A stretch of 64,000 nucleotides of DNA from Ferrovibrio sp. MS7. Lineage in GTDB: Bacteria > Pseudomonadota > Alphaproteobacteria > Ferrovibrionales > Ferrovibrionaceae. The stretch is from NCBI RefSeq assembly GCF_038404985.1, contig NZ_JBBKBA010000001.1:1454001-1518000 (forward strand), read 5' to 3'. Position numbers and translations under genes: made by a program. Positions 3,658-40,335 of this stretch are shown piece by piece. The stretch's first letter is position 1. Every line of letters begins with the position of its first letter. Below the pieces are notes generated by a model that saw nothing but the letters and a program-made list of their open reading frames with translations, was not told the DNA's origin and ran no database searches.

Positions 3658-3906
3658 TCAGGCGGCCTTCTTGGTAGTGGCCTTCTTGGCCGGCTTGGCA
3701 GCGGCCTTCTTCACCGGCGCCTTCTTCTCGGCAGCCGGCTTCTTGGCGGAAGCCTTCTTGGCCGGGGCCTTCTTCGCGGCGGGCTTGGCCGGGGTGGCCG
3801 GGGTGGCCTGGGCCTGCGCGGCCGGAGCGAAGGCCGGGGCGACGACGCCAGACAGGAAGCCAGCGACGATGAAGGCGGCGGCAATCGTCTTGATACGGGT
3901 GAACAT
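3658..3906 (-). CDS. Small exported Lys/Ala/Pro-rich protein
   Basis: The product is 82 residues. The first 30 or so form a signal peptide: MFTRIKTI, a hydrophobic core AAAFIVAGFLSGVV, and a likely cleavage near AQA. The mature part is almost only Ala, Lys and Pro in PAKKA/AAKK-type repeats, like the tail of histone H1 or Hc1-type proteins but preceded by an export signal. ATG 3906 is chosen for its AGGGA ribosome site and the signal peptide; an upstream ATG at 3951 would spoil the signal. The gene has its own promoter and terminator. The function is unknown; a highly cationic periplasmic or secreted peptide could bind DNA, LPS or peptidoglycan. This is inference. Confidence 0.75.
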   Translation of the reverse strand: MFTRIKTIAAAFIVAGFLSGVVAPAFAPAAQAQATPATPAKPAAKKAPAKKASAKKPAAEKKAPVKKAAAKPAKKATTKKAA

Positions 3907-3975
3907 TGCTATGATCCCTGAGATTGAGGCTGCATGCCTGCCCATGCACATAGGTAAGCCGGCTGCATCGACATC

Positions 3976-4005
3976 ATCTCATGGAGGTGGCGGCCACACT
4001 GTCAA
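3976..4005 (-). promoter_or_regulatory. Predicted sigma-70-type promoter of the Lys-rich peptide gene
   Basis: On the minus strand a perfect -35 hexamer TTGACA (4005-4000) is followed after 18 bases by TGAGAT (3981-3976). The predicted start is about 60 bases before ATG 3906. The rest of the gap to 4121 is AT-rich and holds no gene. Confidence 0.5.
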
Positions 4006-4121
4006 GACGGAGTAATAGAGCCGCGCCAATCGTGGCGAATCGCCATGTCGTTATTTTTCGATTCGCGGAACTTTTATGGCTTTTTTATCGCGTTTAAGCC
4101 GATTCGCTGCCGAGTCGCGGA

Positions 4122-5429: not shown

Positions 5430-5450
5430 GGGTTCCGACTCATGTCGTGC

Positions 5451-6938
5451 TCAGGGCCAGTCGTTGAGCCTGTCGAAGGGATAGAGCGGCTTGCGCAACT
5501 GCTTGTAATCCAGCTTGGAATTGTCCGAGGTGGTGACGCCGGTGCCGTCCAGCGTATAGGTGGCGCGGGCCAGCGGTGCGAAGCCGGCGCGGTAATGGAT
5601 GCGCGATTTCAGCAGCAGATACTGCTTCGCCAGCGGATCGATGCCCACCGAGGTGAAGACGCCAGTATCCCAGGGTTCGTGGTGGTTTGAGACCACGACG
5701 ATCTGCATGCCACCGGTCTCGAATACCGCCGTCGGTCCCATCTTCACGACATAGCCGTTATACATTGGGCCGCGCACCACCCATTCGCCATCGGTGATGG
5801 TGCGCACGCGACCGGTGAGTTCCAGCGGCCGGCCGGGTTCGTGGATTGCCGGCATGTCGGTCTTGCCGCCGAGCTTCAGCGTGATGGTGGCGCCGACGCC
5901 GGCCTGCTGCATCTGCTTCACGGCCTCCGGATCCCACACGGCGCCGACGGCGACATCCTGCAATCCCTGGCGCAACACCTCGGCGATCACCGTCATCACA
6001 TCCTGGGTGCCGCCGGAGCCGCAATTGTCGGCATGGTCCAGCAGCACGATGGGGCCATCCACATCCTTGGCCTTGTTCTTGGCCTCGGCCACCGTGTCCT
6101 GCAGGTCGCGGTGCTTGTAGAGGAATATGTCGCGTTGTTCCCAGGCGGCCTTGGCGATGCGCGCCGCCGCCGCATCGGCCTGGGCGAAATCATCGCCGAT
6201 ACAGATCACGCTGGTGCCGGCATCGGCGATATCAGCCAGCGCGAAGCCGCCGAAGATGGTGGCCGCCGGTAAACCTGCGGCTTCCTCGGCCTTGCAGGCG
6301 GCGATCAGGCCCTTCATCGGCTCGTCCGCCGTGCCCTGCGCCAGGGTTTGCGACAGCAGCGGCAATTGCCGCCAGGCCATCACCGGCTTTGGCCGCTTGC
6401 CCTGCAGCCAGCCGAGCAGGATACGGCACACCTGTTCCGCCACGACATCCATATCGACATGCGGATAGGTCTTGTAGCCAATCAGCGCGTCGCAATTGTC
6501 GATCATGCGCTGGGTCAGGTTGCAATGCAGGTCGAGCGTCACGGCAATCGGCAGGTCCGGGCGAATGGCACGGATGCGTTCCAGCAGGGTGCCTTCGCCA
6601 TCATCGGTGCCGTCCGCCACCATGGCGCCGTGCAGGTCGAGCAGGCAGGCATCGCAGCCGGCCTTCACTGCCTCCAGGATCGGCTCGCAGAGTGCGGCAT
6701 AGGCTTCCCGCGTCACCTTGCCGCCCGGCATCGCCTCGGCGGCCACGGGCAGTACCACCTCGGCGCCCATTTCGCGGGCCAGCTTGAGATAGACGCCCAG
6801 CGGCATGTTGGTCTTGGCATAGGCGTCGATGGCGGCCTGGCCACGATAGAGCCCCCAGGCCTCGAACCGCGCCAGATCGGTCACGATCGGCGAGAAGGTA
6901 TTGGTCTCATGCTTCATCATCGCGAGGACGAATTTCAT
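5451..6938 (-). CDS. M81 family metallopeptidase (MlrC-like)
   Basis: The 495-residue protein matches the MlrC/DUF1485 family, named after an enzyme of microcystin breakdown; most members probably act on other peptides. Visible motifs are MKHETNTFSP (His10, Glu11), DLHGAMVADGTDDGEG, LDLHCNLTQRM and IGYKTYPHVDM, which carry the putative metal ligands, and LDHADNCGSGGTQD in the second half. There is no signal peptide. The gene is the first of a pair with the TTC38-like gene. Family members often sit beside peptide ABC transporters, and a lone peptide-binding protein gene lies just beyond trmO at 7.9 kb. The substrate is unknown. Confidence 0.92.
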   Translation of the reverse strand: MKFVLAMMKHETNTFSPIVTDLARFEAWGLYRGQAAIDAYAKTNMPLGVYLKLAREMGAEVVLPVAAEAMPGGKVTREAYAALCEPILEAVKAGCDACLLDLHGAMVADGTDDGEGTLLERIRAIRPDLPIAVTLDLHCNLTQRMIDNCDALIGYKTYPHVDMDVVAEQVCRILLGWLQGKRPKPVMAWRQLPLLSQTLAQGTADEPMKGLIAACKAEEAAGLPAATIFGGFALADIADAGTSVICIGDDFAQADAAAARIAKAAWEQRDIFLYKHRDLQDTVAEAKNKAKDVDGPIVLLDHADNCGSGGTQDVMTVIAEVLRQGLQDVAVGAVWDPEAVKQMQQAGVGATITLKLGGKTDMPAIHEPGRPLELTGRVRTITDGEWVVRGPMYNGYVVKMGPTAVFETGGMQIVVVSNHHEPWDTGVFTSVGIDPLAKQYLLLKSRIHYRAGFAPLARATYTLDGTGVTTSDNSKLDYKQLRKPLYPFDRLNDWP

Positions 6939-27751: not shown

Positions 27752-28267
27752 ATGTCTGATTCCATTTCGCTGGACGCTGCCCTGATTGCTTCGCTGTCCC
27801 AGATCAAGCTGCTGTCGCTCGATCTCGATGGCACGCTCACCGATGGCGGGCTGTATTATTTCGAGGATGGCGGCGAGGCGCGCAAATACCATGTGCAGGA
27901 TGGCTTCGGCATCGTCGCGGTGCAGAAGGCCGGCATCGCCGTCTGCCTGATCACCATGAGCAATACGCCGGCCATCGCGCGCCGCGCCGAGCGGCTGCGC
28001 ATCAAGCATTGCCATATGGGCGTGCATGACAAGCTGCCGGTGCTCAGGACGATCTGCGCTGATCTCGGCATCGGTCTGCACCAGGTGGCGCATATGGCTG
28101 ATGACATCAACGACCTCACCGTGCTGCACGAAGTTGGCCTGCCGATTGCGGTGGCCAATGCGCGGCCGGCAGTGAAACAGGCATCGCGCTATGTCACGCA
28201 AGCCAAGGGTGGCGATGGCGCCGTGCGCGAGATTTGCGATTTCCTGCTCGACTATCAGAAAAGATAA
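27752..28267 (+). CDS. kdsC: HAD-IIIA phosphatase, KdsC/YrbI-like
   Basis: The 171-residue protein begins the HAD motif at LLSLDLDGTLTDGGLYY (nucleophile Asp24, general acid Asp26) and continues with KYHVQDGFGIVAVQKAGI and the Mg2+-binding MADDINDL. This is the tetrameric KdsC family that dephosphorylates KDO-8-phosphate in LPS core synthesis. No other KDO synthesis gene is adjacent, but the KDO transferase waaA lies 10 kb away. Related sugar-acid phosphatases (neuraminate-9-P) cannot be excluded. ATG 27752 is supported by GGAGG upstream; a GTG at 27740 is less likely. Confidence 0.82.
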   Translation: MSDSISLDAALIASLSQIKLLSLDLDGTLTDGGLYYFEDGGEARKYHVQDGFGIVAVQKAGIAVCLITMSNTPAIARRAERLRIKHCHMGVHDKLPVLRTICADLGIGLHQVAHMADDINDLTVLHEVGLPIAVANARPAVKQASRYVTQAKGGDGAVREICDFLLDYQKR

Positions 28268-28281
28268 GGGAGAAGAGTCCG

Positions 28282-29190
28282 ATGGCCATCGATTTCCAGG
28301 GGCGCGTTGCCATTGTCACCGGTGCCGGCTCGGGCTTGGGCCGCAGCCATGCGCTGGCGCTGGCTGCGCGCGGCGCCCGCGTGGTGGTGAACGATCTCGG
28401 CGGCGCGGTGGATGGCACCGGCGGTTCGGCCAAGGCGGCGGACCAAGTGGTGGCTGAGATCAAGGCCGCTGGTGGTGAAGCGGTGGCGAACCATGACAGC
28501 GTTTCCGATGCGGCAGGTGCCGCACGCATCGTTCAGGCGGCCATGGATGCCTGGGACCGCGTCGATGTGCTGGTGAACAATGCCGGTATCCTGCGCGACA
28601 AGAGCTTCGCCAAGATGGAACTCGGTGATTTCGATACCGTGGTGGATGTGCATCTGCTTGGCTCGGCCTATGTCACCAAGGCAGCCTGGCCGGTGATGCA
28701 GGCGCAAAATTACGGCCGCATCGTCATGACCACTTCGGCTGCCGGGCTCTATGGCAATTTCGGCCAGACCAACTATGCCGCCGCCAAGCTCGGCCTGGTC
28801 GGCCTGATGAACGCGCTGAAGCAGGAAGGTGCCAAGAACGGCATCCTGGTCAACACCATCGCGCCGGTGGCCGCCACGCGCATGACCGAAGCCCTGTTTC
28901 CGCCGGCCCTGCTGCCGCATCTCAAGCCGGAATACATCACCGCCGCCGTGGTCTATCTCTGCTCGGAAGCCTGCAATGCCACCGGCGATATCGTTTCCGC
29001 CGGCGCCGGCTTCTATGCCAAGGCGCAGGTGGTGGAAAGCGAAGGCGTGTTCTTCGGTGCCGGCAGCAGTGTGTCGCCAGAAATGATCGCCGAGAATTAC
29101 GGCCGCATTACCGATATGAGCCAGGCGCGCGCCTATGCCGCGGCCATGGAGGAAGTGGCGAAGATTTTTGGCTTCTTCCAGAAGAAGTGA
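28282..29190 (+). CDS. SDR family dehydrogenase, MFE-2 3-hydroxyacyl-CoA dehydrogenase-like
   Basis: The 302-residue Rossmann enzyme has VTGAGSGLGRSHALALA (cofactor site), VVVNDLGGAVDG (NAD preference), NNAGILRDKSFAKM, and the catalytic Ser, Tyr and Lys in TTSAAGLYGNFGQTNYAAAK. The GILRDKSFAKM block and length are typical of the (3R)-hydroxyacyl-CoA dehydrogenase domain of multifunctional enzyme type 2, so a role in fatty acyl-CoA oxidation is likely. AAGGGAGAAGAG precedes ATG 28282, and the gene begins 14 bases after the phosphatase gene. Confidence 0.88.
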   Translation: MAIDFQGRVAIVTGAGSGLGRSHALALAARGARVVVNDLGGAVDGTGGSAKAADQVVAEIKAAGGEAVANHDSVSDAAGAARIVQAAMDAWDRVDVLVNNAGILRDKSFAKMELGDFDTVVDVHLLGSAYVTKAAWPVMQAQNYGRIVMTTSAAGLYGNFGQTNYAAAKLGLVGLMNALKQEGAKNGILVNTIAPVAATRMTEALFPPALLPHLKPEYITAAVVYLCSEACNATGDIVSAGAGFYAKAQVVESEGVFFGAGSSVSPEMIAENYGRITDMSQARAYAAAMEEVAKIFGFFQKK

Positions 29191-29202
29191 CGCGGCGCAA
29201 GC

Positions 29203-29320
29203 CCCCCGGGTCAAGCCCGGGGGTGACGCCTAGTGTTGATAGCCTCGTCATGCCCGGCCCTTCGGGCCTGTGCGCCCATGAACGCCCCTTGGCGCTCACG
29301 CGCTTACAGTGAGCCGGGCA
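29203..29320. repeat. Hairpin pair downstream of the SDR gene
   Basis: CCCCCGGG and CCCGGGGG form a hairpin at 29203-29223. A second, longer inverted repeat has arms TGCCCGGC (29251-29258) and GCCGGGCA (29313-29320) and starts with CGTCATG at 29246. The composition resembles the REP-like elements at 15.7 and 54.8 kb, though this copy is less regular. It lies between convergent genes and may also end transcription. Confidence 0.6.
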
Positions 29321-29329
29321 TCACTTTAT

Positions 29330-30682
29330 TCAGTAATGCATCTCGGCGAAGACGACGCGGTTCTCGGCTGTCGGCCAGCTCTGCACCGCGAAGTTTTCGT
29401 CATTGCCGCGCACCAGCACGGTGCGGGGCGCCGCCGCCGGCAGCCGCAGCGTACCGGTGGATAGTGCGGGCACGCCTTCGCTCACGCCCGGCGCCACAGC
29501 GCCATCGATGGTGAAGACATCGCGGCCATGGCCGAAATAGCCACGCGGCCGGGTCAGCGTGATCGACGAGCCAGCCGCCTTGTCGGCATCGCTCAGGCGG
29601 CCCGGGCGCAGATGCACCAGGTTGGATGAGCGCGGGAAGGGCGTGCGGTAGATATGGGTGATCGCTTCGCCCGGCGCGCTGACCACGAATTCATAGGTCG
29701 CGTCCGGCTTGGCGGTGAAGGGGCCCCAGAGGCCATCGCTGCCGGTGGTTTTGCTATGCACCAGGCCGCGCCGCTGGCCGGTCGCCGGATCGGTCTCATA
29801 GATTTCCACCTTGGCGCCGGCAACCGGCAGATTGGTCGGCGTGCCGCCCGGCATGCCGTTCACCTTGCCGTTCAGTACCGGTGCGGCCTCGGCCTGGATC
29901 GCGAGGCTTGCCGGCGGCTTGCCGAGCAGGAATTCATAAATTGCCGCGAAGGCCTTGGGATGGAACGCTACCTCGCGGTGGTCCAGGCCCGGCAGCACGA
30001 TATCCTTGGCGCCCTTCAGGGCCGGTCCCTCGAAGGTGACGCCGGTGGGCGTGCCGGCCGGCAGGCCGAGATAACGGCCATCGGGTTGAGCGAATTTGTC
30101 GGCATTGTCGGATCGCGTGGTGGCCCATTGCGTGCCGGGCACCACTTCGTTCGGCCCGTCATTGAGCTGGCGCAGGAAAGCACCGGCGCCGTTGAATTCG
30201 CTGCCGACCAGGATGCGGTCGGAGACGATCACGCCATGGTTCGGCGTACCGCAGAGGATGGCATGGCTGACATGGGCGGTGCCGCCGCCATTCTTGATGA
30301 AATTGCGCACCGCGTTGCCGCCGCGCGAGGAGGCGACCAGCGCGACTTTCTCGGCGCCGGTGCGTTGCTTCACTTCGGCGACAAAGGCGGCGAGTTCTTG
30401 GCGGGCCTCGGCGGTGGAGGAGCGCAGTTCCTGCTCTTTGTCATCGACGCTGCGCGATAGCGGATAGCGGAAGTCGATGGCGGCCAGGCGGTCGCGCGGA
30501 AAGCCGTTCGATTCAAAGCGCCACAGCATGGTGTGCCACAAGGCGGCGGTGTCGCCATTGCCATGCACGAACACGATCGGCACCGGTGGCGGCACCACCG
30601 GCGTGCTGGCGCAGCCGAGCAGTGGCAGCGTGGCTGCACCGGCAGTGCCGAGCAGGAAGGAGCGGCGGGAAACAGGCAGCAT
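29330..30682 (-). CDS. Exported alpha/beta hydrolase (lipase) with Tat-type lipoprotein signal
   Basis: The 450-residue protein starts with SRRSFLLGTAGAATLPLLGC, combining a twin-arginine motif with a lipobox Cys, so it is probably a Tat-exported lipoprotein. The hydrolase domain has IVFVHGNGDTAALW (oxyanion region), the nucleophile elbow LVASSRGGNA, and LPGLDHREVAFHPKAF with a likely catalytic His. After about residue 270 a carboxypeptidase-regulatory-like beta domain follows (VAGAKVEIYETDPATGQR), then a further domain. The start is supported by CGGAG nine bases upstream. The substrate is unknown; lipids or short polyesters are plausible. Confidence 0.85.
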   Translation of the reverse strand: MLPVSRRSFLLGTAGAATLPLLGCASTPVVPPPVPIVFVHGNGDTAALWHTMLWRFESNGFPRDRLAAIDFRYPLSRSVDDKEQELRSSTAEARQELAAFVAEVKQRTGAEKVALVASSRGGNAVRNFIKNGGGTAHVSHAILCGTPNHGVIVSDRILVGSEFNGAGAFLRQLNDGPNEVVPGTQWATTRSDNADKFAQPDGRYLGLPAGTPTGVTFEGPALKGAKDIVLPGLDHREVAFHPKAFAAIYEFLLGKPPASLAIQAEAAPVLNGKVNGMPGGTPTNLPVAGAKVEIYETDPATGQRRGLVHSKTTGSDGLWGPFTAKPDATYEFVVSAPGEAITHIYRTPFPRSSNLVHLRPGRLSDADKAAGSSITLTRPRGYFGHGRDVFTIDGAVAPGVSEGVPALSTGTLRLPAAAPRTVLVRGNDENFAVQSWPTAENRVVFAEMHY

Positions 30683-30805
30683 GGCGTTCACTCCGAGACG
30701 ATTCTTATCTTTTCCAGCATGACAGCGGCCCCAGGGCTGGCCGTCAAGCATGGGTGGATGCTAATCATGACAATATGATGACAGTTATGTGAAGCCCCGC
30801 CGACA

Positions 30806-32041
30806 ATGACCCCCCGCCGCCTGATTCTGCTGCTTTCCGCGCTGGGCGTGTTTGGCATCCTGCCCAATTCCAGTTTCCCCGCCCTGGTGCCGGATTTCAT
30901 TGCCGCCTGGGGCCTAAGCAATGCCGAGGCCGGCTGGATCGCCGGCATGTACTACCTCGGCTACATGGCCTGCGTCGCCACGGCGATGCTGCTTACCGAC
31001 CGTATCGATGCCAAATGGGTATTCCTCACCGGCTGCGTGCTGGCCGGTGGCAGCACCATCATCTACGCCGCCATTGCCGATGGCTTCTGGAGCGCCATGC
31101 TGCTGCGCGGTATCGCGGGGATCGGCCATGCCGCGATCTACATGCCCGGTCTGCGGGCGCTCACCGACCGGCTGAACCTGCTGCCGGGCGGCTCCGGCCC
31201 GGCGCTGCAAAGCCGTGCCGTCACCCTCTACACCGCCTGCTACTCGGTCAGCATCGCCGCCAGCTTCACGCTCACCGGCCTGCTGGCGGAGTGGTTCGGC
31301 TGGCGTGTCAGCTTCGCCGTTGTCGGCGCCCTGGCGCTGCTGCCCGCGATAGTGACCTGGCTGGTATTGTCGGATCTGCCGCCGCCGAAAACCGCAGGCA
31401 AGCCGCGGCTCGACTGGCGGCCGGTGTTCCGCAACCGGGCCGCCCTTGGCTATATCGTCGCCTATGGCGCCCATGGCTTCGAGCTGATGGCGATGCGCAC
31501 CTGGCTCACGGCGTTTCTGGTTTTCGCCCTGGCGCGCGAGGCGGCGAACGCGCCCTCCTGGCTGCCCGGGCCGACCTTGCTCGCCGCTTTCGTCACCCTG
31601 ATCGGCCTGCCGGCCAGCCTGCTTGGCAACGAGGTGGCGTTGAAGGTCGGCCGCCGCCGCGCACTGATGGTGATCATGGGTATCTCGGCGCTGATGGGCA
31701 TCGCCTATGGCTTTGTCAGCGCGCTGCCTGTGCTCTGGCTGCTGCTCTACATGTGCGTCTACTTCATCTTCATCTGCGGCGATTCCGGCTCGCTCACCGC
31801 CGGCATGATGGCGGCGGCCGATCCGGCCTCGCGCGGCGCCACCATGGCGGTGCATTCGATCTTCGGCTTCGGCGCCAGCGTGCTTGGGCCGCTCTGCGTC
31901 GGCCTGGCGCTCGATGCCGTGTTCCCGGTCTTCGGCCAGGGTGTGCTGTCCTGGGGCTTGGGCCTGGCGGTGATGGGCTTTGGTGCCGGCCTGGGGCCGC
32001 TGGCGCTGTGGTGGTGGGCGCGGGAGAAAGCCCCCAACTAG
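30806..32041 (+). CDS. MFS transporter
   Basis: The 411-residue protein has 12 predicted membrane helices and the MFS pattern: NSSFPALVPDFIAAW in helix 1, AGWIAGMYYLGYM in helix 2, LLTDRIDAKWVF in the following loop, and GIAGIGHAAIYMPG in helix 4. It resembles uncharacterised sugar- or drug-type carriers; no substrate can be assigned. It is divergent from the lipase gene with about 120 bases between. Its end converges on the DoxX gene, with a 6-bp hairpin TAGAGC/GCTCTA at the junction. Confidence 0.87.
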   Translation: MTPRRLILLLSALGVFGILPNSSFPALVPDFIAAWGLSNAEAGWIAGMYYLGYMACVATAMLLTDRIDAKWVFLTGCVLAGGSTIIYAAIADGFWSAMLLRGIAGIGHAAIYMPGLRALTDRLNLLPGGSGPALQSRAVTLYTACYSVSIAASFTLTGLLAEWFGWRVSFAVVGALALLPAIVTWLVLSDLPPPKTAGKPRLDWRPVFRNRAALGYIVAYGAHGFELMAMRTWLTAFLVFALAREAANAPSWLPGPTLLAAFVTLIGLPASLLGNEVALKVGRRRALMVIMGISALMGIAYGFVSALPVLWLLLYMCVYFIFICGDSGSLTAGMMAAADPASRGATMAVHSIFGFGASVLGPLCVGLALDAVFPVFGQGVLSWGLGLAVMGFGAGLGPLALWWWAREKAPN

Positions 32042-32050
32042 AGCAATGCT

Positions 32051-32515
32051 CTAACGCCGCAGGCGCGGATTTAGCGGTTCCCAGAACAGGCGGTCGAGCG
32101 AGAGTGAGCCGGGGCCACGGATAACCAGCAGCAGTAGGCCGCCGGCCCACAACAGGTGATCGCTCCAGTCGCCGGGATAAACCCACTGGATCACCAGTGT
32201 CACCACCAAAAGGCCGGCGGCGGCGAAGCGGCCGAACAGGCCGAAAAGCAGCAGGGCCGAAAGGATCAGTTCGCCACCGGCGCCCAGCATGGCGGCGGTT
32301 TCCGGGCCCAGCAGCGGCACGCGGTATTCATTGGCGAAGATATCGACCACGCCGGCCGCCAGACGTGGCGGTATTTCCGGCAGCATGCCCGAAGCCGTGG
32401 TGGTGACCTTGGTGAGGCCGGACCGCCAGAACAGTATCGCGAGCGCGATGCGCAGCATCAGCAGCGCCGGACTGAGCGGCAAGGCGGTGAGGGCGCTGCG
32501 GATCGCGAACAGCAT
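32051..32515 (-). CDS. DoxX family membrane protein (HvfX-like)
   Basis: The 154-residue protein has four hydrophobic segments and the DoxX pattern: LMLRIALAILFWRSGLTKV, a loop with NEYRVPLLGPETAA, and GGELILSALLLFGLFGRFAA. It is the last gene of an operon with the DUF2063 and DUF692 genes, six bases after the former. DoxX proteins are regular partners in such operons, where they are called HvfX. A role in quinone or thiol redox chemistry at the membrane is proposed for the family but not shown. Confidence 0.88.
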   Translation of the reverse strand: MLFAIRSALTALPLSPALLMLRIALAILFWRSGLTKVTTTASGMLPEIPPRLAAGVVDIFANEYRVPLLGPETAAMLGAGGELILSALLLFGLFGRFAAAGLLVVTLVIQWVYPGDWSDHLLWAGGLLLLVIRGPGSLSLDRLFWEPLNPRLRR

Positions 32516-32521
32516 GGTGCG

Positions 32522-33289
32522 TCAGCCGGGCCGTCCGAAGACGCCGCCTTCCAGGCACCAGGCAAAACTGGCGGTGAAGTCGAATGTTCCGGCTGCCTGT
32601 GCCACCGCCTGGGCTTGGGCCACCGCCTTGGCCAGCGATTTGCCGGCGAGAATGGTGTCGAGGAAGACGGCTTCCGCGGCCGTCAGCTTGCACCAGCGCA
32701 GATCGATGCCGGCACGCCAGACCAGCAATTGCTCGCCGCCCTGCTTCAGGTCGATGCTGTCGATGGCTGGTGCATCGGGCTGGTGCACCTGCCAGATCTC
32801 GCTGACCGGCCAGGGCGTATCGAGGCGGCGGGCGGAAGGATGCAGCCGCAAGGCCCGCTTCGCCATGGCTTCGGCATCGCCGATATCGTCGGCGCCCAGC
32901 GGTGGCGCATCCTCGGCATGATAGGCCTGATGCAAGGCCCATTCGAAAGCCGCGACGCAGGGCAGGTAGGCATGGCCGGCGAGATCGCGCAACGCCCGCA
33001 ATGCCGCCGGAAAGTCGCCGCCATACATGAACAGCCGGGGGTCGCGCGGCGGCTGGCGCAAGACGAAGTCACGTGCCGCCTGGGTGAAGAAGGCTTCGCC
33101 GACCAGGGCATGGCTGACTGGAAACGTGGCAGCCAGCGCCTCGATCAGGCTGATACGGAACTGATCGGCATAGACCTGGATGCGGCTGGAGGCCGGGATG
33201 GCATCCTCTAGCACGCGCGCCGCCATGGCGCTGGGTCGTCCGACCAGGGCGGCGGCGAAATCGCGCTGCAGGTCAGGCAGCCTGTTCAT
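32522..33289 (-). CDS. HvfC/BufC-like DUF2063 protein
   Basis: The protein, about 255 residues, begins MNRLPDLQRDFAAAL and has the DUF2063 N-terminal fold (IQVYADQFRISLIEALAATFPV, FFTQAARDFVLRQPP, GHAYLPCVAAFEWA), annotated as a putative DNA-binding domain. In studied MNIO operons this partner (HvfC, BufC, MbnC-like) instead binds the precursor peptide and the oxidase. The start overlaps the upstream hvfB end by 17 bases; ATG 33301 is an alternative. The coupling and order match HvfB-HvfC-HvfX. Confidence 0.88.
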   Translation of the reverse strand: MNRLPDLQRDFAAALVGRPSAMAARVLEDAIPASSRIQVYADQFRISLIEALAATFPVSHALVGEAFFTQAARDFVLRQPPRDPRLFMYGGDFPAALRALRDLAGHAYLPCVAAFEWALHQAYHAEDAPPLGADDIGDAEAMAKRALRLHPSARRLDTPWPVSEIWQVHQPDAPAIDSIDLKQGGEQLLVWRAGIDLRWCKLTAAEAVFLDTILAGKSLAKAVAQAQAVAQAAGTFDFTASFAWCLEGGVFGRPG

Positions 33290-34205
33290 CGCCCTGCTCA
33301 TCAATGCCGTTCGGGCTGCTGTCGAGGGTGGCGGCGCGGTGGCGGTCGGCCAGGGCGGCTTCCGCCACCAGGGCACTGAGCGGCGGGATGTTGCTGTCCC
33401 ACTCGATCAGCGTCTCGGCTTCAGGAAATAGCTGCACCGCATGGCGGTAGAGCCGCCAGAGCGGTTCCGGCACCATGGTGCCATGGTCGTCGATCAGGAT
33501 GGCATCGCCGCCATCCAGCTCGGCCTCGCGGTATCCGGCGAGGTGAAGCTGCCGCACCGCCTGGCGTGGCAAGTCCTCAAGATAGGCTTCCGCCACCGCA
33601 TGGGCAGCGCCAGCGCCGATATGGTTGAAGCTCGAGACATAGATGTTGCCGATATCGCAGAGCAGGCCGCAGCCGGTGCTGGCCACCAGTTGCGTGAGGA
33701 AATCCACCTCCGACATATGGCTTTCGCTGTAGCGCAGGTAGGTCGCGGGATTCTCGATCAGGATCGGGCGCTGCAGGCGCTGCATCACTGCCGCGACATT
33801 GCGGCGGCAATGCTCCAGGGTCTCATCGGTATAAGGCAGCGGCAGTTGGTCGTTGTAGTAACGGCCATCGATGCCGGTCCAGGCGAGATGCTCAGAGACC
33901 AGCAGCGGTTCAGTCCGTGCCACCAGGGCAGCGAGCCGGTCGAGATGCGCCGCGTTCGGCGGTTCGCTGCCGCCAAGCCCAAGGCCGGTGCCATGCACGG
34001 CGATCGGCCAATGCTGGCGTGCCTGCTCCAGGTAATGCAGTGCCGCACCGCCGCCCATATAGCTCTCGGCATGGATTTCTAGCCAGCCGACCGGCGGGCG
34101 CTGCTCGAGCAAAGCCACATGATGCGGCGCGCGCATGCCGATGCCGGCCGGCAGCGGCATGGCTGCGGCACCGGTGGAAGCGGCAAACGGGGCGGCCATC
34201 TGCAA
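33273..34205 (-). CDS. HvfB/BufB-like multinuclear iron oxidase (MNIO, DUF692)
   Basis: The 310-residue TIM-barrel protein has the DUF692 ligand motifs: WLEIHAESYM, AVHGTGLGLGG (His71), VSEHLAWTG (Glu105, His106), ILIENPATYLRYS (Glu151), LLCDIGNIYVSSFNH (Asp184, Asn187), HLAGYREAE and IDDHGTMV. MNIO enzymes use an iron cluster to modify Cys (or Asp/Asn) residues in small precursor peptides, making copper-binding peptides such as methanobactin and bufferins. TTG 34205 lies eight bases after AAGGAG; ATG 34199 is an alternative. HvfC and DoxX follow in the same operon. No precursor gene is visible upstream, where the gap is only about 90 bases. Confidence 0.92.
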   Translation of the reverse strand: MQMAAPFAASTGAAAMPLPAGIGMRAPHHVALLEQRPPVGWLEIHAESYMGGGAALHYLEQARQHWPIAVHGTGLGLGGSEPPNAAHLDRLAALVARTEPLLVSEHLAWTGIDGRYYNDQLPLPYTDETLEHCRRNVAAVMQRLQRPILIENPATYLRYSESHMSEVDFLTQLVASTGCGLLCDIGNIYVSSFNHIGAGAAHAVAEAYLEDLPRQAVRQLHLAGYREAELDGGDAILIDDHGTMVPEPLWRLYRHAVQLFPEAETLIEWDSNIPPLSALVAEAALADRHRAATLDSSPNGIDEQGDEQAA

Positions 34206-34297
34206 CAGCCATACTCCTTGAGGCCAGGATCAGGATCGGAACCAGCGGATCATAACACCCGGTTGTGCGGCTTGACGCAAGGTTAACGCCGGTTGTT

Positions 34298-35053
34298 CTA
34301 GTCCGTGTTGCCCCGTTCAGGGTTGGCAGGCAGGCCGATGCGGCCGATGCCGGGCAGCTTGATGGCCGGCCGCAGCGGGTCGATGCCCAGCGTCAGGCCC
34401 AGCAAGTGGATTTCCAGGCCCTCGCGCGGTGCCACCAGCAGGCCGGCAAGGCCGAACAGCGATACCTGCACGCCCTCGCCGCTGGGGGCACGGCCGAGCA
34501 GCGCGCCATCGGTGATATAGTCCTTGCCGATGGCGGTTGGCGGCAATTCCAGGCCTAGTTCGGGCACGCTGCGGCCGATATGGGCGATGAAGCTGTTCGA
34601 GTTCGGCCCCGGCCAGGTGATGTATTCCTTGCCATGCGGATAGCTCTCGATGCTGGCGAGGATTTTCGGGATCAGCGCGGCGGCTTCCGGGCCGCGGCGG
34701 TCGAGCAGCAATTCCGGGGCGTTGCCGGCCCAGCGCGTATCCGGCTCTGTGGTGATGCGCTGGCGCAGCGGCGGGCTGCTCCAGCGCATGATGTCAAAGC
34801 GCTGGTAGCTCGGCGCGCCCTCCGGCTTCACCGCGATCCAGCTATGCACCGCCAATGCGCCGCGCCAGCCCCAAAGCCGCGCGGCATAGACCTGGATCAC
34901 AGCTTCCTGCGTGGTCGCCGGATCGGGCGCGATATCGATGCTGGCGGTGGAAGCCACCGACCAATGTGGCCGCTCGCCCAGCGCCACCGAGGCGCCGCTC
35001 CAGGCCAGCGGCAGCAGCAGAGCCAGCAGCAGGATGAGGATCAGGCGCTTCAT
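34298..35053 (-). CDS. DUF3750 family exported protein
   Basis: The 251-residue protein has a signal or anchor helix (LILILLLALLLPLAWSGASVA). Its body matches the DUF3750 family: AVHSWIAVKPEGAPSYQRFDIMRW, YITWPGPNSNSFIAHIGRSVPEL, and LGLTLGIDPLRPAIKLPGIGRIG. The function is unknown. Its ATG overlaps the stop of the upstream CoA-transferase beta gene (ATGA), so it is translated from the same mRNA. The MNIO operon follows after about 90 bases. Confidence 0.85.
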   Translation of the reverse strand: MKRLILILLLALLLPLAWSGASVALGERPHWSVASTASIDIAPDPATTQEAVIQVYAARLWGWRGALAVHSWIAVKPEGAPSYQRFDIMRWSSPPLRQRITTEPDTRWAGNAPELLLDRRGPEAAALIPKILASIESYPHGKEYITWPGPNSNSFIAHIGRSVPELGLELPPTAIGKDYITDGALLGRAPSGEGVQVSLFGLAGLLVAPREGLEIHLLGLTLGIDPLRPAIKLPGIGRIGLPANPERGNTD

Positions 35054-35799
35054 GCCGCCAGGCTGTCCGGAAACAACCGCGCCACGAAGCGCGGATAGGT
35101 CTCGGCCAGTTCGCGCGCGATCTGGCCGCGCATCAGCGCCAGGGTGGCGGCGTCAGGGGGCGGCGTTTCCGACACCGTTGCCGGGCAGTCGAAATCGAAA
35201 CCGGTATGGTCGCGCACTTCCTCGACGCTGTGGCCCGGATGCACGCTCTCCAGCGTGAAGCGGCGGCGCGCGCGGTCGAAGGAGAACCAGCACAGATTGG
35301 TCAGCAGGCCGATGGGGCCGCCGGGGCGATAGGTGCCGTCATTCTTCGGTCCGGCCGAAGAGATGAAATCCACCTTCGGCACCAGCACGCGGCGCGAATG
35401 TTCTTCGCGGAACAGGATCACGCGCGGCACCAGGTAATAGAGATAGGCCGAGCCAAAGGAGCCGGGCCAGCGCACGTTGGTTTGCGGGTATTCGCCGCCG
35501 GCGCCGACGAGATTGATATTAGCCTCGCCATCGATCTGGCCGCCGCCGAGGAAGAAGGCCTCCAGCCGGCCCTGGGCCGCGATGTCGAATAATTCGACGC
35601 CGCCATCGCAGAAGAAATCGTTGCGGATGCTGCCGAGCACATTCACGCGCATACGGCCGCCGGATTGCGCCCGCGCCAGCAGCGCGCCGGCACCGGGGAT
35701 CGGCGAGGACGAACCCGTGGCGATCAGCCGGCAGCCGGCCAGCAGCCGTGCGATGGTATGGATCAGCAATTCCTGCGGGCGGAACGGCAGTTCGGCCAT
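35050..35799 (-). CDS. CoA-transferase-like beta subunit (IpdB/GctB family)
   Basis: The 249-residue protein belongs to family I CoA transferases: GSSSPIPGAGALLARAQSGG, RNDFFCDGGVELFDIAAQGRLEAFFLGGGQIDGEANIN and LVPKVDFISSAG are recognisable. The catalytic Glu of true transferases (an E-x-G motif in the beta subunit) is not evident, so the pair may act like IpdAB, a ring-opening CoA hydrolase of steroid degradation. That is inference. Upstream extension to 35883 overlaps the alpha gene and is unlikely; ATG 35799 follows the alpha stop by five bases. Confidence 0.82.
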   Translation of the reverse strand: MAELPFRPQELLIHTIARLLAGCRLIATGSSSPIPGAGALLARAQSGGRMRVNVLGSIRNDFFCDGGVELFDIAAQGRLEAFFLGGGQIDGEANINLVGAGGEYPQTNVRWPGSFGSAYLYYLVPRVILFREEHSRRVLVPKVDFISSAGPKNDGTYRPGGPIGLLTNLCWFSFDRARRRFTLESVHPGHSVEEVRDHTGFDFDCPATVSETPPPDAATLALMRGQIARELAETYPRFVARLFPDSLAA

Positions 35800-35804
35800 G
35801 GCGC

Positions 35805-36620
35805 TCACTCCGCCGCCTGGCGCGGCAGCACGAATTCGGCGAGATACTGCGCGAAGCCGGCCTCGCTGCGCGCCAGTTCGCAATAGCGCGTGATATGCGC
35901 CTCGTCATGACCGTAGATATTCCACAGGTTCACCGGCCAGGCACCGCGCGGTGCCACGGCAATGCCGCCGATATAGGCGCCGGTCAGCGTGCCGGCGGCG
36001 CTCTCTTCGTTGGCCAGCAGGTCGATGTCGCGGATTTCCTCCACCGTCACCAACGCTTGCTTGGCGGCATGCGCCATCGCCACCAGTTCGCGGCGACGGC
36101 CAATGAAGACATTGCCGTTGCGGTCGGCGTAGGGAGCATGGAACAGGGCGAAATCCGGCCGGATCGCCGGCAGCAGCACGATGGGATCAGGCTCGGTGCT
36201 GAACGGATTGTCCATCACCTGCCAGTCGCTGCGATGTTTCAGCAGGTCGGTACCCAGCATGCCACGCAACGGCATGAAGGGAATGCCCTTGCCGGCGGCC
36301 TGGATCGCGGCATGGATCGCGGGGCAGGTGGCATCCAGCATGCGGAAGGCCTTCTGCTTCAGGCCGGCGATGAAGCGGTGCGCGGTGCCATACTCGCCGA
36401 GCGTGACGGCGGAGGTTTCCAGCACCCGCACGGCGCCGGCGCCGATCAGCATTTCGGTCTGCAGGCCGGTCACCGGCACGCCCACCACATGCAGATCGCG
36501 GATGCCGCGGCGGATCATGGCGCGGGTGAGTTCCATCGCCACGCCGGAATAATCCGGCGGCACGGCGACTTTGGCACCATTTGGAATCAGGGCAGCGAGA
36601 TCGTCGACGGAGAAAGTCAT
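35805..36620 (-). CDS. CoA-transferase-like alpha subunit (IpdA/GctA family)
   Basis: The 271-residue protein matches the alpha subunit: IPNGAKVAVPPDYSGVAMELTRAMIRRG, LHVVGVPVTGLQTEMLIGAGAV, MPLRGMLGTDLLKHR and FHAPYADRNGNVFIG. It is encoded directly before the beta subunit with five bases between, and the two should form a heterotetramer. Substrate candidates range from 3-oxoacids and glutaconate to steroid ring fragments; the sequence does not decide. Confidence 0.85.
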   Translation of the reverse strand: MTFSVDDLAALIPNGAKVAVPPDYSGVAMELTRAMIRRGIRDLHVVGVPVTGLQTEMLIGAGAVRVLETSAVTLGEYGTAHRFIAGLKQKAFRMLDATCPAIHAAIQAAGKGIPFMPLRGMLGTDLLKHRSDWQVMDNPFSTEPDPIVLLPAIRPDFALFHAPYADRNGNVFIGRRRELVAMAHAAKQALVTVEEIRDIDLLANEESAAGTLTGAYIGGIAVAPRGAWPVNLWNIYGHDEAHITRYCELARSEAGFAQYLAEFVLPRQAAE

Positions 36621-36662
36621 GGCAGGCCTCCAGAGCCCGCCGATTGTCGCGCCGGTCGGCGC

Positions 36663-37142
36663 CTAGCGCAAGCGATGACGCACCGGGTCGGCACTGGCGC
36701 GGAGGTTGGCATCCTGACGTTTTAGTGATTTCTCCAAGGCCGTCACCGGCACGCCGATGCCGACCAGGCAGGAAGCCTGGTAGCACCATTCGTTGTAGCC
36801 GGCGATCAGGCCATCGCGCAGGCGATAGCGGCTGGCGCCGGCCATCAGTACGCGTTTGCCCTGGTTCGGCGCCATATTCGAGGTGAAGCTGAACAGCCAG
36901 TTGGCATAGCCGATGCCGTTTGCCGCCACCGGTTCGTGCATCTCCCATTCGAAATCGCTGCCATCGCGGAAGAATTTCGCCAGCATCTCGCCAATCGCCG
37001 CGCGGCCATCATGGCGGCCATAGAACACATCATCGTAATAGGCATCCGGCGTGAACAGGGCCGTGAAGCCGGGAATATCCTGGCGCCGCACGGCATCGGA
37101 AAACTGCTCCATCAAGGCAATGAAAGCCGCCGTCTCGCTCAT
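36663..37142 (-). CDS. SnoaL-like (NTF2-fold) protein
   Basis: The 159-residue protein fits the SnoaL-like NTF2 fold: an N-terminal helix (FIALMEQFSDAVRRQD), LFTPDAYYDDVFYGRHDGRAAIGEMLAKFF, and a C-terminal sheet with RYRLRDGLIAGYNEW. Members include small cyclases, isomerases and stress proteins. The function is unknown. It is 42 bases upstream of the CoA-transferase alpha gene on the same strand, so it could be part of that operon. Confidence 0.8.
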   Translation of the reverse strand: MSETAAFIALMEQFSDAVRRQDIPGFTALFTPDAYYDDVFYGRHDGRAAIGEMLAKFFRDGSDFEWEMHEPVAANGIGYANWLFSFTSNMAPNQGKRVLMAGASRYRLRDGLIAGYNEWCYQASCLVGIGVPVTALEKSLKRQDANLRASADPVRHRLR

Positions 37143-37159
37143 TGTATCTCTCCCGGTTT

Positions 37160-38428
37160 TTATAGGTTATGCAGCCGCTGCAGCACGGCCTGTTCGGTCT
37201 TGTCCAGCACGGCATTCTGCTCTGTGGCAAAAGCGGCGCCGGCCTGGCCCATCGCCGCGAGCGCGGCTGGATCATCCAGCAGGCGGGCGAGTTCCAGAGC
37301 CAAAGCTGTGGCATCCGGCACTTGCGTGGCAGCATGACGCGCCACCAGATCGGCAGCAATTTCACTGAAATTGAACATATGCGGGCCGAACAGCACGGCG
37401 CGTCCAAGCCGCGCCGGCTCCATCGGATTCTGCCCGCCATGCGCGATCAGCGAACCGCCCATCACCGCAATCGGGCAGAGGCGATACCACAGGCCGAGTT
37501 CGCCGAGCGTGTCGGCAACATAGATGTCGGTCGCAGCAGTGATGGCTTCGCCAGCAGCCCGGCGGCTCACCTTGAGGCCGGCTTGGCGCAAAGCTTCGAC
37601 TACCGCCGGCCCACGTTCGGGATGGCGCGGCACCACGATGCCGAGCAGGCCAGGATGCCGGGCGGCGACGGCACGCTGAATCGTGGCGGTGGTTTCATCT
37701 TCGCCGGGATGGGTGGAGGCCATCAGCCAGAGTGTCCGGCCGGCGGTCTGGGCCTGGAGGGCGGCCAGGGCTGCTGCGTCCGCCGGCAGCGGCGGCGCTG
37801 CGAGTTTCAGGTTGCCCAGACTCTGCACGTCGCGGGCGCCCAGCACGCGGTAGCGTTCGGCATCGGCCTGACTCTGGGCATAGATGGTCTCGAAGCCGGC
37901 AAGCAGCCAGCGTGCGATGCCGGGCACGCGCTGCCAGCGGCGGCAGGAGCGTTCCGACATACGTGCATTCAGCAGCAGCATGGGAATGCCGCGCCGCGCC
38001 GCGCCAGCCAGCAGGCCGGGCCAGAGTTCGCTTTCACTCCACAGCACCAGATTCGGCCGCCAATGGGCAAAGAAGCGGTCGGTGGCCTGTGGCAGATCGG
38101 ATGGCAGATACTGGTGCAGCAGGCCCGGTGCGCGCGACGCCACGGTGGCCGCCGAGGTACGGGTGCCGGTGGTGATCAGCAAGGCAATGTCAGGACGTGC
38201 CGCCTGCAGCCGCTGCAGCAGCGGGATCAGCGCCACCGCTTCGCCAACGCTGGCGGCATGACTCCAGACCAGCAGGCCGGCGGGGCGGGGCAGACTGGCG
38301 ATGCCATTGCGCTCACCAAGCCGCGCAGCATCTTCCTTGCCTTGCGCCACGCGGCGGCGCAGCCACAGGGCGATACCCGGCGCGATGGCATGGCCGATGC
38401 CACGCCACAGGCTTTCCAGCCCGCTCAT
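37160..38428 (-). CDS. waaA: 3-deoxy-D-manno-octulosonic acid transferase WaaA (KdtA)
   Basis: The 422-residue inner-membrane-associated glycosyltransferase adds KDO to lipid A precursors. Motifs are LLVWSHAASVGEAVALIPLL, LWSESELWPGLL (the catalytic Glu region), STHPGEDE, VPRHPERGP and the CMP-KDO binding MGGSLIAHGGQNPMEPA. ATG 38428 overlaps the asnB stop (ATGA), so translation is coupled. It differs from the common lpxK-linked context, and the coupled AsnB hints at an amide-bearing envelope product. An upstream start at 38476 would lie within asnB. Confidence 0.92.
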   Translation of the reverse strand: MSGLESLWRGIGHAIAPGIALWLRRRVAQGKEDAARLGERNGIASLPRPAGLLVWSHAASVGEAVALIPLLQRLQAARPDIALLITTGTRTSAATVASRAPGLLHQYLPSDLPQATDRFFAHWRPNLVLWSESELWPGLLAGAARRGIPMLLLNARMSERSCRRWQRVPGIARWLLAGFETIYAQSQADAERYRVLGARDVQSLGNLKLAAPPLPADAAALAALQAQTAGRTLWLMASTHPGEDETTATIQRAVAARHPGLLGIVVPRHPERGPAVVEALRQAGLKVSRRAAGEAITAATDIYVADTLGELGLWYRLCPIAVMGGSLIAHGGQNPMEPARLGRAVLFGPHMFNFSEIAADLVARHAATQVPDATALALELARLLDDPAALAAMGQAGAAFATEQNAVLDKTEQAVLQRLHNL

Positions 38429-40335
38429 GCTTTCAGCCATTGCCGTTGCCATGCCTGCAGCATGAGCACGCCCCACAGGCCGTATTGCCGGTTGGCGCGG
38501 CCGCTCAAGTGATCCTGCCAGGCTTGCCGGATCGGGGTGGCGCGCAGCAGGCCGGTTTCATTCAGGGCCGCTTCCGAGAGCAGATCCTCGGCCCAGTCGC
38601 GCAGCGGCCCACGCAGCCAGGTGCCGATCGGCACCGCGAAACCGCTTTTCGGCCGCTCGAACAATTCCGGCGGCACATAGCGGCCGAGCAGATGGCGCAG
38701 CAGCCATTTGCCCTTGCCGTCGCGCAGCTTGATATTGCGTGGCAGGGCCAGGCCGAAACTCAGCACGCGGTGATCCAGCAGCGGCACGCGCGCTTCCAGC
38801 GCCACCGCCATGGTGGCGCGGTCCACCTTGGTCAGCACATCGTCATGCAGATAAGTGCCGGCATCGAGGCGCTGCAGATAGGCAACTATATCCTCAGCTT
38901 TGTGGCGTTTCGCCAAGGGCGGCACCGCGCCCGGCTGTTGCAGCAGCACAGCGGCATCGGGCCATTGCTCCACCAGCGGGCGGTAATATTGCTCCAGGCT
39001 TTCCGCCTGCAACGTGCCGGCCAGCTTATGCAGCTTCTCGCCGAATTGCGGCGGGCGCAGTGAAGCCGGCAGCAGGCCGGCCGCACTATCCCATTGCGAT
39101 GGACTCAACAGCCGCAGCGCACCGGCCAGGCCCTGGCGCAACGGCGCCGGCCAGGCGGCATAATTCTGCCAGGCTGGTGCCATGACATGGCGGTTATAGC
39201 CGGCGAAGCCTTCATCGCCGCCATCGCCGGAGAGTGCCACGGTGACATGCCGCCGCGTCAGCCGCGCCACCAGATAGGTCGGGATCTGCGAAGCATCGGC
39301 GAAGGGCTCGTCATAGATCGAGGCCAGGCCGGGAATTACTTCCAGCGCCTCGGCCGGCGTGACGGTCAGGGTGGTATGCTCGCAGCCGAGATGCTTCGCC
39401 ACCGCCTCGGCGGCCTGCGATTCATCATAGCCGGACTCGGTATAGCCGATGGTGAAGGTTTTCACCGGCCGTGCCGACTGGCTCTGCATCAGGGCTGCCA
39501 CCAGGCTGCTGTCGATGCCGCCGGAGAGGAAGGCGCCGAGCGGCACATCGCTGATCATGTGGTCGCGCACCGCGTCGCGCAGCAATTCGTGCAAGCGCTG
39601 CGTGGCTTCCGTATCGCTGGTGACAGCGGGTTCGGCGGCGATGGCCTGGTCCAGCGTCCAGTACAGCCGCTCTTCCGGCGCGGCATCCGGGCGCTTGATC
39701 AGTAGGCCACCCGGCGGCAGCTTGCGCAGGCCCTGCCAGATGCTGCGCGGCGTCGGGATGTAGTTGAAGCGCAGATAGTCGGAAACGGCCGTTGCATCCA
39801 GCCGTTTCTCGAAACCGGGCAAATAATGGAAGGCGCGGGTCTCGGAGGCGAAGGCGATGCCCTCAGTGCCGACCGGATACCAGTAGAGCGGCTTGATGCC
39901 GACGCGGTCGCGGGCCAGCGACAGGGTCCGGGTTTCATGGTCCCAGAGTGCCAGGGCAAACATGCCCTGCAGCCGGGCAAGGCAGGGTTCGAGCCCCCAG
40001 GCTTCTATGCCAGCCAGCATCACCTCGGTATCGGAATGGCCCCGGAACGGCACGCCGGCGGCTTCCAGTTCGCGCCGCAACGCCTGGAAGTTATAGATCT
40101 CGCCGTTATAGGTGAGCATGTAGCGGCCGCTATGGGAGGCCATGGGTTGGCGGCCAAGCGGCGACAGGTCGATGATACTGAGGCGGCGTTGACCCAGCGC
40201 GATGCCGGCGGTATCTGCCCACACATCGCCGTCATCGGGGCCGCGATGCTGCAACGAGGCCGTCATCGCCGCGGCGATTTCGCGCAGCCGGTCCGGGCCG
40301 GAATGAGGGTCGAGCAGGCCAGCGATGCCGCACAT
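38425..40335 (-). CDS. asnB: Asparagine synthase (glutamine-hydrolysing)
   Basis: The 636-residue protein has the complete two-domain plan. The glutaminase domain starts MCGIAGLLDP, with the N-terminal nucleophile Cys2, RRLSIIDLS and NGEIYNF. The synthetase domain has the ATP pyrophosphatase motif AFLSGGIDSSLVAALM and ALSGDGGDEGFAGYNRH. It makes Asn from Asp, or in many AsnB paralogues amidates a cell-surface or secondary metabolite substrate. Its overlap with waaA makes an envelope role possible. Upstream is the TauE gene, 10 bases away on the same strand. Confidence 0.93.
   Translation of the reverse strand: MCGIAGLLDPHSGPDRLREIAAAMTASLQHRGPDDGDVWADTAGIALGQRRLSIIDLSPLGRQPMASHSGRYMLTYNGEIYNFQALRRELEAAGVPFRGHSDTEVMLAGIEAWGLEPCLARLQGMFALALWDHETRTLSLARDRVGIKPLYWYPVGTEGIAFASETRAFHYLPGFEKRLDATAVSDYLRFNYIPTPRSIWQGLRKLPPGGLLIKRPDAAPEERLYWTLDQAIAAEPAVTSDTEATQRLHELLRDAVRDHMISDVPLGAFLSGGIDSSLVAALMQSQSARPVKTFTIGYTESGYDESQAAEAVAKHLGCEHTTLTVTPAEALEVIPGLASIYDEPFADASQIPTYLVARLTRRHVTVALSGDGGDEGFAGYNRHVMAPAWQNYAAWPAPLRQGLAGALRLLSPSQWDSAAGLLPASLRPPQFGEKLHKLAGTLQAESLEQYYRPLVEQWPDAAVLLQQPGAVPPLAKRHKAEDIVAYLQRLDAGTYLHDDVLTKVDRATMAVALEARVPLLDHRVLSFGLALPRNIKLRDGKGKWLLRHLLGRYVPPELFERPKSGFAVPIGTWLRGPLRDWAEDLLSEAALNETGLLRATPIRQAWQDHLSGRANRQYGLWGVLMLQAWQRQWLKA

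Follow-up and report, generated by a model that had tools for sequence, protein, structure and literature searches.

A bufferin-type maturase operon of Ferrovibrio without its precursor gene, and a related MNIO lineage with replaced iron ligands

We analysed a 64,000-nucleotide stretch of the genome of Ferrovibrio sp. MS7 (hereafter, the window) and found at 32051-34205 a bufferin-type bufB-bufC-doxX set without a precursor; it is not a complete bufferin cluster. The DUF2282 precursor gene of this operon (bufA) was deleted in place, between a DUF3750 gene and bufB. We conclude this because a sister locus is colinear with the window, and because four genomes from other genera also carry bufA in the orthologous operon. 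The maturase that was left behind is most likely still an active enzyme. The orthologous MNIO lacks three iron ligands in five further genomes of the genus, where it looks, from its sequence, like an exapted MNIO pseudoenzyme. MNIO clusters without a precursor were already known; this pseudoenzyme lineage is the more surprising part of our results.

Loss of bufA from the window operon

The family set comprised 18 genomes, and an order-level search returned the same 18; several of them are incomplete metagenome-assembled genomes (MAGs), with G008 at 87%. An orthologue of the window MNIO is present in 11 of the 18, the window genome included, and the other ten proteins are 53-69% identical to it. 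Within the genus orthology was assigned by synteny; across genera it was assigned by similarity alone. Immediately ahead of the orthologous MNIO there is a DUF2282 gene in G008, which belongs to the same genus, and in G004, G014, G015 and G016, which belong to other genera, but not in the window genome or in G007, G009, G011, G012 and G013. The locus of Ferrovibrio Gw_Bodden_bin_55 (L033, the named copy of G008) reads AsnB-KdtA-SnoaL-CoA transferase A-CoA transferase B-DUF3750-bufA-bufB-bufC-doxX. The window is colinear with it, and the sole gene missing from the window is bufA, which in Gw_Bodden_bin_55 (DUF2282, 89 residues, four cysteines) occupies the position of a 92-base gap in the window. 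Alignment did not localise the deletion breakpoints. The operon and its borders are as follows.

30806-32041, plus strand: MFS transporter gene (PF07690), convergent, the downstream border of the operon
32051-32515, minus strand: doxX, DoxX-family membrane protein of 154 residues (PF07681, E-value 1.3e-14)
32522-33289, minus strand: bufC, DUF2063 (PME-type 1) partner protein of 255 residues (PF09836, E-value 1.3e-21)
33273-34205, minus strand: bufB, MNIO bufferin maturase of 310 residues with a TTG start (PF05114, E-value 1.8e-88)
34206-34297, minus strand: gap of 92 bases between bufB and the DUF3750 gene, precursor absent
34298-35053, minus strand: DUF3750 gene, 251 residues, encoding no cysteine (PF12570, E-value 1.1e-45)

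The order of transcription on the minus strand is DUF3750, the gap, bufB, bufC and doxX. All three operon reading frames are open, bufC and bufB overlap by 17 bases, and an AAGGAG in the gap sits 8 bases ahead of the TTG start of bufB. By synteny, L034, L036 and L037 also have the MFS transporter on the downstream side of the orthologous operon. DUF3750 is the upstream neighbour of the operon in all seven genomes of the genus that yielded the operon; in the other genera (L014-L017), a search around the orthologous operon with a narrow profile gave no DUF3750. DUF3750 and the operon may be functionally linked. As a substrate modified on cysteine, DUF3750 was rejected, as the window copy and those of L008, L009 and L010 have no cysteine at all.

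The first-pass annotation had described an MNIO, an HvfC partner and a DoxX protein without an adjoining precursor, and about 90 free bases upstream; the reading frames lie where it placed them, and the free space is the 92 bases ahead of the DUF3750 gene on the same strand. It had also called the set bufferin/Hvf-type. The bufferin half of this description stands, and the names HvfB and HvfC have to be withdrawn. The window MNIO scores 319.4 bits against the NCBIfam model NF050167 MNIO_BufB (cut-off 310) and 176.7 bits against the HvfB model NF003818 (cut-off 360), and because it lies above the first cut-off and below the second we assign it to the BufB type. The HvfABC(X) oxazolin systems resemble the window operon in having an MNIO, a DUF2063 partner and a DoxX/HvfX-like protein, but the window proteins are far below the Hvf cut-offs, the DUF2063 partner at 53.9 bits against HvfC (cut-off 142) and DoxX at 38 bits against HvfX (cut-off 80). 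The window thus has neither the HvfB-type MNIO nor the EGKCG-repeat precursor of an HvfABC system, the latter judged by a sequence pattern and not by a profile. From a bufferin (Buf1) cluster it has the BufB-subfamily MNIO with its iron ligands, the DUF2063 gene after the MNIO, and DoxX, which occurs in many but not all such clusters. What it does not have is a DUF2282 bufA with a Sec signal peptide and four cysteines before the MNIO.

A wider set of 91 related loci combined the family orthologues with the top 80 of a scan that gave at least 573 related stretches, and it is a set of nearest relatives, not a random sample. Its rows represent 83 distinct MNIOs, and L033-L037 each share an identical MNIO with a genome of the window's genus. 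In 74 of the 91 loci bufA lies upstream of the MNIO on the same strand; three (L051, L059 and L106) are truncated by the end of their contig, and it is missing from 14 rows, which hold 10 distinct MNIOs including that of the window. By this count the missing precursor goes beyond a chance finding. One of these 14 rows is the window and nine come from five genomes of the genus; the other four are L057, L069, L081 and L105, from Variovorax, Azohydromonas and two Burkholderiales MAGs. L069 has no bufA ahead of its MNIO, but bufA and DoxX matches are nearby on the other strand.

The orphan MNIO-DUF2063 pairs of Burkholderiales resemble the window in that bufA is missing and the ligands are intact. 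They differ in what precedes them: a membrane protein, Sulf_transp (PF04143), in L057 and L081 (approximately 3830-6600), with L105 similar by eye, and DUF3750 in the window. These pairs may represent an MNIO system linked to the transport of sulphur.

Other precursors and regulation in the window genome

It had been a concern of the first-pass annotation that a canonical precursor might lie just beyond its frame reading. There is none in 28000-38500. A home-made scan of both strands of this region for open reading frames of 40-200 residues with a signal-like N-terminus and at least two cysteines returned two candidates only, an internal start within the MFS transporter gene and an out-of-frame frame within the SnoaL gene. 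In the control the same scan recovered the known precursor in five of five loci, with false candidates alongside in three of the five. A bufA profile scan of the window locus (L007) found no precursor in or near the operon. An out-of-frame reading frame at 33910-34212 (100 residues), which overlaps the start of the MNIO, was rejected as a precursor; it is arginine-rich and, by eye, has no signal peptide.

The genome-wide search for DUF2282 that the annotation had recommended found one gene, at C1:922253-922399, 565 kb from the window operon. It belongs to a complete bufferin operon, in which an extracytoplasmic function (ECF) sigma factor gene and an NrsF-type anti-sigma gene are divergent from bufA, MNIO, DUF2063 and DoxX genes. 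This bufA encodes a DUF2282 protein of 101 residues and four cysteines, with the same cysteine layout as the lost precursor. The suggestion that a precursor is encoded elsewhere is thus borne out, though the gene sits within an operon of its own. That the window operon once had a canonical precursor, since deleted in place, was beyond what its sequence by itself could reveal. The suggestion of a new precursor type gained nothing from five genome-wide searches for known kinds (DUF2282, BufA2, EGKCG, TIGR04222 and Buf2-type). The BufA2 model gave a sub-cut-off match only, to the 922-kb DUF2282 gene itself; the EGKCG codon pattern had 0 matches in the genome and TIGR04222 had none; and a Buf2-type (CKG-type) peptide from a relative, used as the query, gave weak matches only, to an antisense frame (E-value 0.019) and to the 922-kb bufA (E-value 0.48). 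The former (L171) was rejected as a precursor, being antisense to a reading frame of 543 residues.

Peptides with CKG repeats are found in other genomes of the family. In L021, L027, L029, L030 and L031, signal-bearing CKG-repeat peptides with at least six cysteines lie upstream of the MNIO and are Buf2-like by eye. L021 has two such genes in tandem, at 638-943 and 1117-1368.

DUF2282 matches occur in 12 of the 18 family genomes, exactly one in each, several of the genomes being incomplete. All six genomes that lack the precursor in the orthologous operon hold a second operon with a sigma factor, NrsF, bufA, bufB, bufC and DoxX, and in these six it is this second operon that contains the one DUF2282 gene.

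The window genome (4.58 Mb in 5 contigs) has three MNIO genes and three DUF2063 genes, one adjoining each MNIO. The third pair, at C1:429 kb, directly follows the gene for a 715-residue ferritin-like protein with a cysteine-rich tail (L005 2897-6675; G000:C1 approximately 426.9-430.7 kb). This gene overlaps the start of the MNIO gene; its product has an N-terminal Ferritin-like domain (PF12902) and 14 cysteines in total, and its cysteine-rich C-terminal part includes CRGTNACSGQGGCG and CQTLGGC. L019 and L028 have homologues of this reading frame ahead of MNIO genes. Possibly the ferritin-like protein serves an MNIO as a large protein substrate.

The window and 922-kb operons differ in their regulatory surroundings. 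In Caulobacter, sigma-F has the motif GTAACC-N16-CGAA and controls both DUF2282-DUF692-DUF2063 operons, which have been studied with chromium and cadmium (PMC3511200). These operons, CC3254-CC3257 and CC2907-CC2905, are examples of Buf1 clusters (bufA DUF2282, bufB MNIO, bufC DUF2063, doxX), the second of them without DoxX. The window shares the families and order of such clusters but not the precursor. The nine genes scanned in 29330-37142 include neither a sigma nor an anti-sigma gene, and the 92-base gap has no sigma-F-type match, even at two mismatches. A pattern this loose is unspecific: the 64 kb contain 44 matches where 26 are expected. In the 922-kb operon there are two matches with one mismatch (GTAACG-N16-CGAA), one toward bufA and one toward the divergent sigma gene; 0.17 are expected by chance in 10 kb, and two were reached in 2 of 200 shuffles. 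A looser form of the motif, used with no chance control, is found ahead of bufA in all six related second operons and was not found in the window gap, G008 and the five pseudoenzyme loci (one strand, approximately 150-270 bases each). A scan of 31950-35150 for sigma-70-like promoters gave no match.

The iron site in the window and in a sister lineage

The iron ligands of TglH are H71, H107, E151, D184, N187, H216, D229, H231 and E258 (PMC10880893), and two further papers give equivalent ligands for MbnB (PMC8888699) and report that the site-3 residues are essential too in HvfB (PMC13419390). We read the ligand columns against the TglH and MbnB ligands from these papers and against alignments of PDB chains. 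The window MNIO keeps nine of nine predicted ligands: H71, H106, E151, D184, N187, H221, D239, H241 and E268 in the numbering of its own reading frame. The N that seems to be lost from DVNN (DIGN in the window) does not count as a missing ligand, because only the first D and the last N serve as ligands. The AlphaFold2 model of the window protein has a predicted local distance difference test score (pLDDT) of 92.3 and a predicted template modelling score (pTM) of 0.89, and its best PDB matches are TglH, 3bww and MbnB. The ratio of nonsynonymous to synonymous substitution rates (dN/dS) between the window and the G008 locus (L008) is 0.275 for bufB and 0.20 for bufC, each from one pair that also spans the time before the loss of bufA. 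Because every iron ligand is kept and the partner protein is complete, we believe that the window maturase is most likely still a BufBC enzyme that would oxidise cysteine and form thiooxazole.

The orthologous MNIO of all five other precursor-less genomes of the genus (G007, G009, G011, G012 and G013) carries H71Q, E151A and H216R. The loci (L009-L013, four of which appear again as L034-L037) have the layout DUF3750-MNIO-DUF2063 and no precursor. Across the related loci all nine ligands are kept in 82 of the 91 rows (78 of the 83 distinct MNIOs), and the remaining nine rows are these five proteins, four of them seen twice. The replaced residues are ligands of the Fe1/Fe2 pair, and E151 bridges both irons; the site-3 residues D184, N187, D229 and H231 are kept. 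Single mutants of such ligands in MbnB abolish activity or impair the protein level, according to PMC8888699, and PMC10880893 reports that TglH E151A is inactive while H71A kept low activity in one assay. Because of this last result, the loss of catalysis in the sister lineage is put forward here as a prediction from the three changes together. The ligand-loss MNIO of L034 scores 301 bits against the BufB model, just below the cut-off of 310. The DUF2063 gene is kept in these operons. More than 4 kb of downstream sequence was covered in L034, L036 and L037 and gave no DoxX match; the remaining copies were covered over a shorter stretch.

The ligand-loss MNIO is nevertheless strongly conserved. 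Its dN/dS is 0.035-0.162, with a median of 0.118 (10 pairs, trimmed cores), whereas the intact paralogue of the same five genomes gives 0.205-0.402, with a median of 0.294 (10 pairs); the ligand-loss protein is lower in 10 of 10 pairs. These are pairwise Nei-Gojobori (NG86) estimates, a simple method, and the ten pairs share ancestry and are not independent; an untrimmed calculation went in the same direction. For LepA the values are 0.034-0.092, with a median of 0.082 (six pairs, G007 missing), and for the DUF2063 proteins of the five precursor-less operons 0.04-0.11 (six pairs, with L012 left out because it is cut short). The predicted fold of the G007 protein is well defined (pLDDT 90.4, pTM 0.88), and its best matches are the same MNIO structures. 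A pseudoenzyme may be recognized by ligand loss together with a maintained fold and purifying selection. The sister lineage shows all three, with the fold modelled for G007 only; the window MNIO, with all nine ligands present, shows no ligand loss. In the literature that we searched, with most subscription papers outside that search, we found no described case of an MNIO pseudoenzyme. For the sister lineage we favour a different substrate or function, the first of which the first-pass annotation had suggested, because there the MNIO has lost iron ligands.

The order of these events depends on the tree. The best MNIO tree groups the window with the pseudoenzyme clade and leaves G008 outside (support 87/84); on that tree bufA would have been lost once and the ligands later, in one of the branches. 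In topology tests, joining the window and G008 (L007+L008) was not rejected (approximately unbiased test, p-AU 0.24), and joining G008 with the pseudoenzyme group gave p 0.041. The LepA trees place the window species outside the rest of the genus, with G008 nearer to the pseudoenzyme species (key fork 87/90 for protein, 80/88 for DNA); both include a wrong row for G007, a wrong open reading frame on a very long branch, which is to be ignored. This topology would need two losses of bufA or a regain. The MNIO and LepA trees therefore disagree, with moderate support, on a single versus a double loss. The window may be an intermediate between the bufA-bearing and the pseudoenzyme states.

Possible roles of the orphaned operon

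We propose, with slightly less than even confidence, that the window operon is an orphaned maturase able to modify the BufA1 encoded at 922 kb in trans, beside BufA1's own BufBC. In this model BufC would present the BufA1 precursor with its signal peptide, and BufB, judging from what is known of the family, would oxidise the central cysteines of the precursor to thiooxazole. The product would then be exported by Sec and would bind copper in the periplasm. Preliminary results that BufB-BufC recognises the signal peptide are noted in PMC12452194, which also allows for precursors that are unlinked and for a single MNIO pair that serves several of them. A substrate in trans is plausible because each family genome with any DUF2282 match has exactly one, because the surviving precursor has the same four-cysteine layout as the lost one, and because all six orphan genomes have the second operon.

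Several points weigh against this proposal. The remaining bufA already has its own BufBC and does not need a helper. Judging from its promoter region, the window operon is probably not under sigma-F control and would then not be co-regulated with the 922-kb bufA; this speaks mildly against a dedicated helper. The orphan MNIO has lost three iron ligands in five related genomes, so an operon that persists need not have retained its catalytic activity. The dN/dS of the window pair includes time before the loss, so that it does not establish purifying selection on the window operon after the loss. Finally, the association of bufA loss with a second operon goes back to perhaps one or two loss events, and six of six is statistically weak.

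BufB-BufC may instead have taken on a precursor-independent and possibly non-catalytic role, as a complex that binds metal, serves as a scaffold or chaperone, or regulates, perhaps together with DUF3750. The full metal site of the window would then be an earlier stage of the path followed by the sister lineage. The five bufA-less operons with H71Q/E151A/H216R and retained site-3 residues fit such a role, as do the missing DoxX match in L034, L036 and L037, the BufB score below the cut-off, the constraint above that on the intact paralogue in every pair, the intact predicted fold with MNIO structures as best matches, and the MNIO tree that joins the window with the ligand-loss group. The window, however, keeps its nine ligands and its DoxX, its grouping with the pseudoenzymes is weak given the topology test and the LepA trees, and the residual activity of TglH H71A leaves room for catalysis. 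For the window operon we regard a precursor-independent role as rather unlikely. Another reading is that the window operon is a relic, redundant and no longer selected once the second bufferin operon took over, and now heading for decay. A complete second operon is present in the same genome, bufA loss coincides with it in six of six genomes, and G010 yields only an MNIO of the second-operon type. A relic is improbable all the same: the three window reading frames are intact with nine ligands kept, and the constraint on both MNIO and DUF2063 in the five related operons means that no decay followed the loss there. Least probable, and in our view only a slim chance, is that the true substrate is a precursor of an undescribed type elsewhere in the genome. 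According to PMC12452194, about 4,000 main-cluster MNIOs have no adjoining Buf1, Buf2, EGKCG or CxxxxC precursor, and hundreds of other small cysteine-containing reading frames precede such MNIOs; moreover, our genome-wide searches covered the known kinds of precursor. But the ancestral substrate of the operon is known, being the DUF2282 precursor of the colinear locus, and the searches for known kinds found only the 922-kb bufA.

A related proposal concerns the genus as a whole. It is possible, though we consider it somewhat doubtful, that the Ferrovibrio MNIO-DUF2063 pair was freed from its peptide substrate and exapted, with bufA deleted first, as in the window, and the di-iron ligands then replaced in one lineage under near-housekeeping constraint; the window would be the intermediate. 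If this is true, MNIO-DUF2063 complexes would have a conserved function beyond peptide oxidation, possibly one that uses only the third metal site, which is kept.

A published survey (PMC12452194) describes MNIO clusters that have no known precursor, precursors that are unlinked, and genomes in which precursors outnumber MNIO pairs. The window genome is the reverse case, in which MNIO pairs outnumber precursors, and the lost gene was traced. The precursor-less main-cluster MNIOs of that survey are like the window in combining an MNIO and a DUF2063 protein with no recognisable precursor; here, by contrast, the lost precursor, its site and the surviving genomic precursor were identified by synteny. 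For thousands of MNIOs without an adjoining substrate, the precursor could be unlinked, unrecognised or gone, and in this operon synteny answers that it is gone. A leftover pair that persists with an incomplete iron site under strong selection means that 'MNIO + DUF2063' alone is no proof of a pathway for a ribosomally synthesized and post-translationally modified peptide (RiPP). This is a caution for genome mining, and it provides natural variants of the metal site for asking what role the partner complex has besides catalysis. Because the leftover MNIO of the sister lineage lost part of its iron site and yet is strongly conserved, our results suggest that such enzymes can be reused for something new.

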